Part shown: in pieces, positions 42,023 through 45,692 of the stretch
Layout of the letters: each line of letters starts with the position of its first letter
How positions within the stretch are numbered: the stretch's first letter is position 1
From: an uncultured Hyphomicrobiaceae bacterium
Lineage (GTDB): Bacteria > Pseudomonadota > Alphaproteobacteria > Rhizobiales > CALHAX01
Length of the DNA: 54,962 nt
Assembly (NCBI GenBank): GCA_937931785.1
Contig: CALHAX010000095.1
Coordinates: 1-54,962, forward strand
Direction: 5' to 3'
Made by a program: the position numbers and the translations under genes
The notes under the pieces: generated by a model
The model's input: the letters and a program-made list of their open reading frames with translations, nothing else
Databases searched by the model: none
What the model was told of the DNA's origin: nothing

Positions 42023-42382
42023 ATGAACCACCGGACAACACCCGCAATGACTGCGATTGAAACGCTTGCTGCCACGATCCGTGCGCGTCGAACCGCATCG
42101 ACCGAACAATCCTACACGCGTATGCTTCTGGATGGAGGTGTTGCAAAGTGCGCCAAGAAGCTGGGTGAGGAGGCGGCCGAGACGATCATCGCAGCGATGG
42201 GTGAAAGTGATGAGGCATTGACCGGCGAAGCTGCCGATCTGATTTTTCATCTGCTTGTCTTGCTGGAAGCGCGTGATGTTTCACTCGATGACGTGTGTGC
42301 TGAACTGAATCGACGTGCTGGAACATCCGGACTTGATGAGAAAGCATCGCGGAGCGCGCCAGGGAAGGTTGATAACGCATGA
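42023..42382 (+). CDS. hisE: phosphoribosyl-ATP pyrophosphatase
   Basis: A 119-residue MazG-like all-alpha enzyme for the second step of histidine synthesis. It shows [29 protein letters not shown] with the metal-binding Glu residues, then [27 protein letters not shown]. Start at 42023 or at 42047 (MTAIETLAA) is possible; neither has a strong ribosome site. It ends in an ATGA overlap with coaA. Confidence 0.94.
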
Positions 42383-43353
42383 ACAGCCTCTGGACACCGG
42401 GGGTTGACGATAGCGATATCGGTTTTTCCCCGTATCAGATCTTTTCCCGAGAAGAATGGGCGGGCCTGCGGGCGGATACGCCAATGGTGCTGTCTGAAGA
42501 GGATCTCGAACAGCTTTCCGGCATCAACGAAGAATTGTCCATGTCCGAGGTTGAAGCGATCTATCTTCCGATGTCGCGATTGCTGAACCTGTATGTAGCT
42601 GGATCGCAGGACCTGTATTCTGTGACCTCGAAGTTTCTTGGTAAGAAAAGCGAGCGTGTTCCGTTCATTATCGGGGTGGCGGGGAGTGTGGCCGTTGGCA
42701 AGAGCACAATGGCACGCGTGCTTCAGTCACTGCTTGCCGGATGGCCAAACCATCCGCGCGTGGAACTTGTCACGACTGATGGTTTTCTACTGGACAATGC
42801 AACGCTGGAAGCACGGGGCTTGATGAATCGGAAGGGATTTCCGGAAAGTTATGACTCCCGTCGACTGCTGAATTTCCTTGCGGAGGTCAAAGCCGGCAAG
42901 TCGAAGGTTAAAGCTCCGGTGTACTCACATTTTCATTATGACGTGCAGAACGATGTGACAATTGAAGTGGATCGCCCGGACATCCTGATTGTAGAAGGAT
43001 TGAATGTTTTGCAACCGGCGCGACTGCCTCGTGATGGAGAGGCCATTCCATTTGTCTCGGATTTCTTCGACTTCTCCATTTACCTGGATGCGTCTTCGGA
43101 TGTTGCGGGGCATTGGTATCGGGAACGATTCATGCGTCTACGTTCAACGGCGTTTCGTGATCCCGCAGCGTATTTTCACCGATATGCAACATTGTCACCT
43201 GAAGATGCGCTTGAGACAGCCGATGATATCTGGCGGACGATTAACCTGGTCAATCTAACGGAAAATATATTACCTACCCGCCAGCGCGCTGATCTGATTG
43301 TGCGCAAGGGGCGTGATCACAGCGTTGAAGCTGTTGCCTTGCGCAAAATATGA
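42379..43353 (+). CDS. coaA: type I pantothenate kinase
   Basis: A 324-residue kinase for the first step of coenzyme A synthesis. The P-loop is [14 protein letters not shown] (about 98-111). Further blocks are [45 protein letters not shown] and [12 protein letters not shown]. The N-terminus with [20 protein letters not shown] is typical. It overlaps hisE by four bases, so histidine and CoA genes share a transcript. It is followed by a strong bidirectional terminator. Confidence 0.96.
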
Positions 43354-43452: not shown

Positions 43453-43750
43453 CTACCGCTGCTTTCGCAACCGGCGCTGTGCTCGAACTGCCGACAGTGT
43501 CATGTCGATGAGCAGGGCCTGTTGTCGCAAAAATGCAGCAACAGGCGCCTGCTTCATAATTGTTTCGTAGAGACCAATCTGTTGTTCAATGAACATGCGA
43601 GCCGCTTGCGTGGTTCCGTTCATTGCATCAGGTTGTAGTCCGATCCCCAACTGACGGAGCGTATTCAGAGCGTCGTTGATGTTGACACCTGTTTGGAACG
43701 CTTCGCCTCGTGTTTCTGTGTTTTGCTCTCGCAGGTCGCCGTAACTGTTG
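43453..43750 (-). pseudogene. out-of-frame C-terminal domain of the histone-like gene
   Basis: On the minus strand, one base out of step with the histone-like gene, an open frame encodes about 99 residues with normal protein character. These include SYGDLREQNTETRGEAF, NINDALNTLRQLGIGL, RMFIEQQIGLYETIMKQ and LIDMTLSAVRAQRRLRKQ. It has no ATG, GTG or TTG near its conserved-looking beginning (the first ATG is at DAMNG), so it is unlikely to be an independent gene. Its amphipathic helices recall phasin-like proteins, but this is only an impression. Removing one G of the GGG run (plus-strand CCC, 43761-43763) would join it to the upstream gene as a protein of about 325 residues. Confidence 0.5.
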
Positions 43751-44431
43751 CTAGCGGCGGCCCTTTGCTTTTGCAGGAGCTTTCTTGGCTGTCGCGCGCT
43801 TGGCAGGAGCCTTTTTAGCGGCCGGCTTTTTGGCGGCTGCTGCAGCCCGTTTTGCTGGAGCTTTTTTGGCAGGAGCCTTTTTAGCGACTGCTTTTTTGGC
43901 AGCGGGCTTCTTGGCTGCCGGCTTTTTGGCAACAGCTGCTTTTTTGGCTGGAGCTTTTTTAGCTACAGCTTTCTTGGCGGCTGGCTTTTTAGCTGCAACT
44001 GCTTTTTTAGCCGGAGCTTTTTTAGCTACAACTTTCTTAGCGGCTGGCTTTTTGGCTGCAACGGCCTTTTTGGCGGGTGCTGCTTTTTTAGCTGCCGGCT
44101 TCTTGGCAACCGCTTTCTTAGCGGCTGGTTTCTTAGCAACGGCCTTCTTGGCAGTTGTCGTTTTCGCTGCGGTCTTGGAAGAGCTCGCAACGCCGTTCAT
44201 CTTTCTAGCCATGGGTTTTCCACCTGCTTGTTTGATCAGCGTGTTTGCACTCTCGTTGAACTTGTCTCTCAACCGACGAATGATCGAGGCATTGGTGATA
44301 CCAATTCGCTTGATCGCGGTTGTACGCTTCATGTCCGGGTCCTTCGCGATCAGTTTCGCGATCTTCGCCAGAGTTTTGCTATCGTCGATGCCTGATCCTT
44401 TGGGCCGACCTCGACGCGGTCTTACATTCAT
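43751..44431 (-). CDS. AT-hook, histone H1-like lysine/alanine-rich protein (possibly frameshifted)
   Basis: 226 residues. The N-terminus has an AT-hook core, RRGRPKGSG at residues 6-14, followed by a helical, HTH-like stretch [39 protein letters not shown] (about 22-60, in pieces). From about residue 80 to the end it is a repetitive tail of AAKKP, AVAKK and APAKK units, as in histone H1-like and PhaF-type proteins. It is a likely nucleoid or granule DNA-binding protein. GGAGGT precedes the ATG. The stop at 43751 comes where the reading frame seems to break; the following 300 bases code in the next frame. See the neighbouring entry. Confidence 0.75.
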
Positions 44432-44494: not shown

Positions 44495-44516
44495 CAAAAA
44501 AAGGGATTAAAATCCC
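44495..44516 (-). terminator. terminator after adenosine kinase gene
   Basis: On the minus strand GGGATT (44516-44511) pairs with AATCCC (44508-44503) and is followed by a run of T (A-run 44495-44502 on plus). It would end the nth-adenosine kinase transcript. The 265-base gap around it (44432-44696) shows nothing else. Confidence 0.7.
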
Positions 44517-44696
44517 CTGAATGAGTTCCAAAACATGCTGTTTGGAGCAGTTTTGGGAGAAATACGTTGTTTTACTCCCAATCTGTTGCGCAGATGTCTC
44601 AGCGGTAATTTCTGCAATGCAGTTTTTTGTGCCTCGTTGTTTCGATCTAACTCAACCTCGATGCACGTACGACAATTACCGTTTTTCTATCTGAAG

Positions 44697-45692
44697 TCAC
44701 ACCAGTTTGTTGGCCTTAGCCAACTCGTGGAGTGAAATTTCTGGTCGTGCGCCGATGTGGCTTATGACCTCTGCTGCAGCAATGCTCCCCAATGTTCCAC
44801 ATGTTTCGATTTTGTGTCCTTGCGCGTATCCGTACAAGAACCCAGCAGCATATAGATCACCTGCACCTGTTGTGTCGACAACTTCTTGTACTGGTTGTGG
44901 TAAAATATGGTGCTTTTCACTCCGATGGGAGATGAATGATCCCTCCGCACCGCGTGTCATGACCACGGTTTTATTCTCGCCAGCGAGTTTGATGGCTGCG
45001 TTTACCGTGTCTGTTGCGCCAGTCAGTGCTTGAAGTTCGTCTTCGTTTGCAAAAAGTATGTCGATGTGGGTTTCGATGAGATCCAGGAAGGCATCACGAT
45101 GTCTCTCCACACAGAACGTGTCGGAAAGTGTCAGTGATATGAGTGTATCGGCTGTTTTTGCGATGTCGCATGCAGCATAAAATGCGGCTTTCGCTTCATC
45201 ACGGTCGAACAGGTATCCTTCCAGGTAGAGGATCTTGGCCTGTTCGATGTGTTCGGGTGTGATCTCTTGCTTGTCGAGAGCTGGGCTACATCCAAGGAAG
45301 GTATTCATGGTGCGTTCACCGTCCGGGGTGACAAAAATCAGGCATCTAGCTGTCGGATCTCCGCCTGATACCGGTTTGGAGGCGAATTCCACGCCGATGG
45401 AGCGAATGTCGTGTGTGAAGATTTGACCGAATTCGTCTGATGCGACGCGCCCGATGAAGCCCGTTCTCCCCCCAAAGCTTGCGATACCAGCAATCGTGTT
45501 TGCCGCTGATCCACCGGAGCGCTCCTGCCCTGGTCCCATGGCTGCATATATTGGTGCAATGTCGGTTTCCTCGATCAATTGCATGGCACCCTTTGCAAGA
45601 TTGAGGTCTGCAAGGGTTTGATCATCGCTTTTTGCGATAACGTCGACGATGGCATTGCCGATTCCGAGGACATCGAGCTGTTGTGCGGACAT
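44697..45692 (-). CDS. adenosine kinase / PfkB-family sugar kinase
   Basis: A 331-residue ribokinase-fold enzyme. PfkB signature 1 is the GGSAANTIAGIASFGGRTGFIGRVASDEFG stretch (about 60-88 in pieces). Signature 2 is VDTTGAGDLYAAGFLYG with the catalytic Asp. AIVDVIAKSDD at the N-terminus and FANEDELQALTG match the bacterial adenosine kinase subgroup. That subgroup phosphorylates adenosine or related nucleosides, though some members act on other sugars. It lies 54 bases after nth on the same strand. Confidence 0.88.
   Translation of the reverse strand: MSAQQLDVLGIGNAIVDVIAKSDDQTLADLNLAKGAMQLIEETDIAPIYAAMGPGQERSGGSAANTIAGIASFGGRTGFIGRVASDEFGQIFTHDIRSIGVEFASKPVSGGDPTARCLIFVTPDGERTMNTFLGCSPALDKQEITPEHIEQAKILYLEGYLFDRDEAKAAFYAACDIAKTADTLISLTLSDTFCVERHRDAFLDLIETHIDILFANEDELQALTGATDTVNAAIKLAGENKTVVMTRGAEGSFISHRSEKHHILPQPVQEVVDTTGAGDLYAAGFLYGYAQGHKIETCGTLGSIAAAEVISHIGARPEISLHELAKANKLV

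Follow-up and report, generated by a model that had tools for sequence, protein, structure and literature searches.

AlgP of Pseudomonas aeruginosa is described, in the part of PMC9239181 on which we draw, as a predicted helical domain followed by a long, predicted disordered region of Lys/Pro/Ala repeats that is likened to the tail of histone H1. The same source states that a fragment of the repeat region binds DNA, calls the region a rearrangement hot spot and ties AlgP to the even spacing of polyphosphate granules. It also describes nucleoid-associated phasins of the PhaF type, in which a DNA-binding Lys/Ala-rich tail is combined with a helical domain (PMC9239181). Here we analyse a gene of an uncultured Hyphomicrobiaceae bacterium, located in a DNA stretch of 54,962 nucleotides (the window, contig CALHAX010000095.1), that resembles AlgP in joining a helical domain to an H1-like repeat region; this is a likeness of description and no homology is claimed. 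Among the systems described, AlgP appears to be the closest analogue. The order of parts differs, however: as AlgP is outlined in this source, its helical part is N-terminal and its repeats are C-terminal, whereas the family of the window gene has an AT-hook motif and a predicted three-helix domain first and a predicted hairpin last. Moreover, the AlgP truncation studied there removed the repeats, whereas the frameshift in the window cuts off the helical hairpin.

PhaF-type phasins, as described in that source, share with the window gene the combination of a Lys/Ala-rich tail and a helical domain, and the same genome elsewhere contains one match to PhaC_N (PHA synthase) and two to Phasin_2. 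A phasin identity of the C-terminal domain was considered and rejected, as the domain had no Pfam phasin match and hhalign found no match between its profile and the stronger of the two Phasin_2 matches (P 0.8, one phasin compared). Hc2-like H1-like proteins (PF07382; NF038052, NF038053) have the same Lys/Ala tail composition as the window gene, which differs from them in its additional N-terminal domain and, in relatives, C-terminal domain. The NCBIfam equivalog cut-offs for Hc2 and for the Burkholderia-type H1-like proteins were not reached (42.8 bits against 135 required and 46.4 against 80, respectively).

A putative nucleoid-type gene with an AT-hook motif and an H1-like tail

The gene is read from the minus strand and comprises the following parts.

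44431-43751, minus strand: nucleoid-type ORF of 226 aa, with AT-hook motif RGRPKGSG, three-helix domain and Lys/Ala-rich H1-like tail
44234-44431, minus strand: conserved N-terminal domain (N-domain) of 66 aa, from profile matches and alignment
43754-44176, minus strand: Lys/Ala-rich tail or linker, limits drawn by eye

The ATG of the 226-residue ORF is preceded by an AGGAGG ribosome site. An AT-hook consists of an RGRP core with flanking basic residues, and this arrangement is found at residues 6-14 (RRGRPKGSG); the region from G8 to D17 is invariant in 18 aligned sequences. The motif is followed by a three-helix domain with predicted helices at residues 18-30, 36-42 and 48-65 and a pLDDT near 90 at residues 21-60. 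Comparison of the N-domain with known folds gave nothing convincing (best Foldseek E 2.0), and its best sequence matches among solved structures were inorganic pyrophosphatases (E 0.008). HTH_29 fell below the Pfam cut-off for the N-domain of one relative (E 0.019), and PHROGs gave one weak N-domain match (E 0.029). The tail exceeded the Pfam HC2 gathering cut-off (57.3 bits vs 40, residues 122-221), a match to low-complexity Lys/Ala sequence, and contains imperfect repeats of 15-78 bases between 43839 and 44149. The only other DNA match of the gene in the same genome lies at C109:5728-5787 (L002), in the Lys/Ala-rich C-terminal tail of a protein that we take to be a topoisomerase I. A second copy of the gene was rejected on this basis, the lone match being confined to that tail.

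A coding-like piece continues out of frame beyond the stop codon

43453-43752, minus strand: out-of-frame C-terminal piece (C-piece) of 99 aa and stop, +1 frame
43751-43768, minus strand: approximate frame-change site, +1 relative to the family, from the frames here compared with in-frame relatives

The C-piece is open for 99 codons (43752-43456) and ends at a stop codon at 43455-43453. We scored it with a fourth-order Markov model of coding sequence, built from 140 long ORFs in a sample of this genome. It scored +6.0 in the proposed frame and -21 and -34 in the other two frames of the strand; the antisense frames scored -7, -28 and -23. For 612 genic windows of 300 bases, which overlap the training ORFs, the 5th percentile of the true frame was 0.5 and the 95th percentile of the best wrong frame was -12.8. 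Frames and coding statistics thus agree with an earlier note, made from the sequence alone, which had pointed to a protein-like stretch of about 99 residues lying one base out of step after 43751; the arithmetic also bears out its fused product of about 325 residues. Possible in-frame starts are a TTG at 43932, upstream in the tail, and a TTG at 43650 and an ATG at 43623 inside the piece. Since no Shine-Dalgarno-like sequence was seen before any of the three, the C-piece appears to have no start near its beginning, as the note had also held. The note placed the frame change at the loss of one G from a GGG run. The complementary CCC does sit at 43761-43763 of the plus strand, but the run is one possible place among several: a single step anywhere from the last Lys/Ala codons (about 43768-43763) to the stop fits the change of frame, across the junction AAG GGC CGC CGC TAG C.

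Structure prediction suggested a helical hairpin in the C-piece, with helices at residues 47-67 (pLDDT about 52-69) and 70-98 (about 84-94); the model as a whole had a mean pLDDT of 67.6 and a pTM of 0.32. Searches of solved structures gave nothing convincing (best E 0.47 by sequence and 4.9 by Foldseek). The C-domain had no Pfam or NCBIfam match above cut-off. Below the Pfam cut-off, the C-piece matched DUF6399 (E 0.089) and Phage_connect_2 (E 0.17), and NAD_binding_2 appeared in two of the five rows of alignment A2 (best E 0.15), which represent four genomes since relative L004 was entered twice. PHROGs searched with the C-pieces gave nothing at E 0.1. The family is named by neither Pfam nor NCBIfam, and in a literature search no title or abstract opening among the matches listed named it.

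Relatives carry the C-domain in the same reading frame

Homologues of the C-piece were found in three of 40 other genomes searched (E 3e-10, 4e-9 and 7.5e-7). Its profile matched five of 397 genomes of the order, the window genome included; among 385 genomes sampled from the class it matched one, the window genome itself. Sixteen residues are invariant among five distinct C-domain copies (alignment A5, from five distinct genomes). A chance ORF was therefore rejected on the strength of homologues, coding statistics and invariant residues. N-domain, Lys/Ala linker and C-domain form one ORF in G038, G009, G024 and G045. In relatives, a single frame thus runs from the AT-hook motif through the helical domain and linker into the C-domain, which lends good support to the note's reading of the stretch as a hidden C-terminal part of this protein. 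The C-piece homologues that we read were fused to the N-domain, and none was free-standing; the two outcomes that would have spoken against the note, a stretch lacking homologues or one kept as a gene with its own start, were thus not observed.

The N-domain matched 27 of the 397 genomes of the order, the window genome counted in. Fourteen of the 27 have the C-domain in the same ORF (counting L025, whose C-domain is doubtful, as a profile member) and two have it out of frame, namely the window genome and G219, at locus L021. Seven are short forms with no C-domain detected, one (L015) runs off its contig and three are weak N-domain matches without a C-domain. In 10 of the 14 in-frame genomes the C-domain is of a more distant type, tied to that of the window by hhalign (P 5.9e-5, probability 65%), and the doubtful L025 is one of these 10. 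Genus g100, to which G219 belongs (nine genomes), supplied five further in-frame cases; its remaining genomes are G199, already counted among the 14, the split G219, G782, whose gene is cut short by the contig end, and G783, which had no match. In total, 19 other genomes have the N- and C-domains in the same ORF and one other (L021) has the C-domain out of frame. Because 13 of the 19 were members of the C-domain profile used, only their frame counts as an independent fact; the six outside it (L019, L022, L024, L029, L081 and L082) matched at E about 3e-11 or better.

Genome contigs scanned with the C-piece yielded no relative; when the N-domain alignment served as query instead, 18 loci were found. 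The C-domain was in frame in 11 of the 18 named loci and went undetected in four (L052-L055), and three ran off the contig (L040, L051 and L056). Eight of the 11 in-frame loci seem to come from genomes already counted under G handles, and L043, L044 and L047 are further ones. We take 12 of the 18 to belong to Hyphomicrobiales, to Hyphomicrobiaceae or to genera within them. Taken together, the sequences suggest a small alphaproteobacterial family of nucleoid type with an AT-hook motif, a three-helix domain, a variable linker (H1-like here) and a C-terminal helical hairpin.

The seven short forms (L023, L026 and L030-L034) measure 87-96 residues, counted from the N-domain up to the stop codon. 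Reading the frames of their strand revealed no C-domain; for L023 this reading covers just about 100 bases beyond the stop. These short members suggest repeated loss of the hairpin and, at seven of 27, loss of the C-domain seems to be tolerated in the family.

Neighbouring genes and transcript

42379-43353, plus strand: presumed coaA (pantothenate kinase; Pfam PRK family), a frequent neighbour
44697-45692, minus strand: sugar kinase that we take to be adoK-like, a frequent neighbour
43418-43394, minus strand: terminator-like hairpin and T run after the C-piece, from a consensus-match scan
44501-44518, minus strand: terminator-like hairpin upstream, after adoK, from the same kind of scan

Among 13 other genomes checked, seven have both adoK and coaA as neighbours of the gene, three have coaA alone (L041, whose upstream flank is short, and L045 and L048, with 3 kb each) and three have neither (L040, L054 and L055). 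No adoK was found within about 3 kb upstream of the N-domain in L040, L045 and L048. The neighbourhood is common to about half of the genomes checked, not general. In a scan for consensus matches only, no terminator-like site was found between 43751 and 43453 on the minus strand. Since the first downstream terminator-like site on that strand is the one at 43418-43394, the message would include the C-piece, and the transcript probably still carries it.

Divergence of the window C-domain

The window C-domain shares 40-49% identity with those of its four nearest relatives; among these four the identity is 51-71%. The corresponding values for the N-domain are 70-81% and 66-79%. The window C-domain has lost six of 22 residues that are invariant in the four relatives. 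When each relative was left out in turn, the losses were 0/16, 0/16, 1/17 and 0/16 (pooled 1/65; Fisher p 0.0009 vs the window, in a post hoc test of 45 ungapped columns and five sequences whose pooled counts are not independent). Losses in the window N-domain were ordinary (one of 31 invariant residues). CoaA gave no sign of a fast lineage in the window genome, which lost 14/176 residues (8.0%) compared with 10/172, 10/172, 20/182 and 11/173 in the others (5.8-11%). The window C-domain thus seems to diverge faster than the N-domain of the same gene. A C-frame without a stop in 99 codons is what an error or a very recent event would leave. In simulations, the chance that it would stay open after 15-25 neutral residue changes was 0.38-0.22, so the open 99-codon frame is a weak argument against a real, older mutation.

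Origin of the frame change

Because relatives have the C-domain in the same ORF, flanking genes are shared and the C-piece is coding-like, we read the locus as most likely a single gene interrupted by a shift of one base. In our judgement it is very probably a single nucleoid-type gene in which an ordinary one-base frameshift, real or erroneous, at the end of the linker cuts off the hairpin. The earlier note had left three options, a sequencing error, a recent frameshift and a programmed frameshift; the last is disfavoured, and the other two both stand. An error of sequencing or assembly, with the gene intact in the cell and the shift present only in the record, is a reading that we take seriously without quite preferring it. 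It would account for nearly all relatives with a C-domain having it in frame and for a C-frame that is still open and coding-like, and it would suit a draft assembly of 134 contigs in which the site adjoins a repeat-rich stretch. However, the site itself has just a three-base run, the apparently faster evolution of the C-domain relative to the N-domain speaks weakly against an error, and a sample of 362,075 bases (20 stretches and the window) gave no sign of frequent indels. In this sample 15 frame changes were called. Twelve had a start in the downstream frame at -17 to +8 from the upstream stop, like neighbouring genes, two ended in stubs of 15-19 codons and one (L071 near 4255) had no nearby start. 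The codon-based signal of this last case, at L071:3403-4747, may be spurious, as the upstream ORF looks complete. Planted indels were found in 42/60 and 48/60 trials; the method is insensitive to short, weakly coding tails, since it missed the split in the window at its penalty. None of the calls was a clear break in a long gene, the L071 case being the one in doubt. Indels thus do not look common in the assembly, and of the two readings we slightly favour a real mutation, which would have struck a domain whose constraint had already weakened, over an error of sequencing.

A short and a long product would instead result if the ribosome shifted by +1 in a programmed manner or if transcription slipped on the A6 runs of the tail, and the C-piece is indeed open and coding-like ahead of the first downstream terminator-like site. 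Genome G219 supplies a second split family member, on the minus strand of L021 at 1016-1680. Its N-domain ORF encodes 138 aa up to a stop codon at 1266-1264; its C-domain is read in the -1 frame, and the open part of that frame begins exactly at an eight-A run (1344-1337). Yet the split arrangement is not conserved: 19 other genomes are in frame, including six of the seven readable genes of L021's own genus, and the split goes in the +1 direction in the window but in the -1 direction in L021, at a different kind of site. By eye, no familiar +1 slippery motif was seen at 43751-43768, and to our knowledge the junction fits no known +1 site. The C-domain is, moreover, the less conserved part of the window gene. 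Because the split is not shared, a +1 motif is not recognised and the C-domain seems to diverge faster, we consider programmed frameshifting very unlikely. We give as little credence to a broader version in which slippage at A-rich lysine codons would turn the family's linker into a switch and produce mixtures of short DNA-coating and long hairpin-bearing forms, with the window and L021 splits as two frozen or active states. The least probable reading is a separate small gene, reinitiated at TTG 43650 or ATG 43623 and encoding a hairpin of roughly 56-65 residues. ATG 43623 does lie just ahead of the conserved core, but neither start follows a Shine-Dalgarno-like sequence and no relative read supports a C-piece with its own start.

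Discussion

The preferred reading remains that of one gene whose frame shifts by one base near 43751-43768, where the linker ends, so that the hairpin would be lost from the product. By its architecture the protein would belong to the nucleoid; its DNA binding, self-association and expression we infer from sequence. The AT-hook and helical domain would engage DNA, which the cationic linker may coat or bridge, and the hairpin may be the part that self-associates or binds a partner. The 226-residue product could still bind DNA through its AT-hook and Lys/Ala tail, so that the window protein would keep its DNA-binding parts without the hairpin, as short forms elsewhere seem to have done.

The frameshift itself is ordinary. 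What it uncovers is that the 300-base stretch past the stop codon is a real domain, which gives the full architecture of an alphaproteobacterial protein of putative nucleoid type: AT-hook, three-helix domain, H1-like linker and C-terminal hairpin. A standard gene finder would probably call just the short form here, and some relatives seem to have shortened the full architecture.
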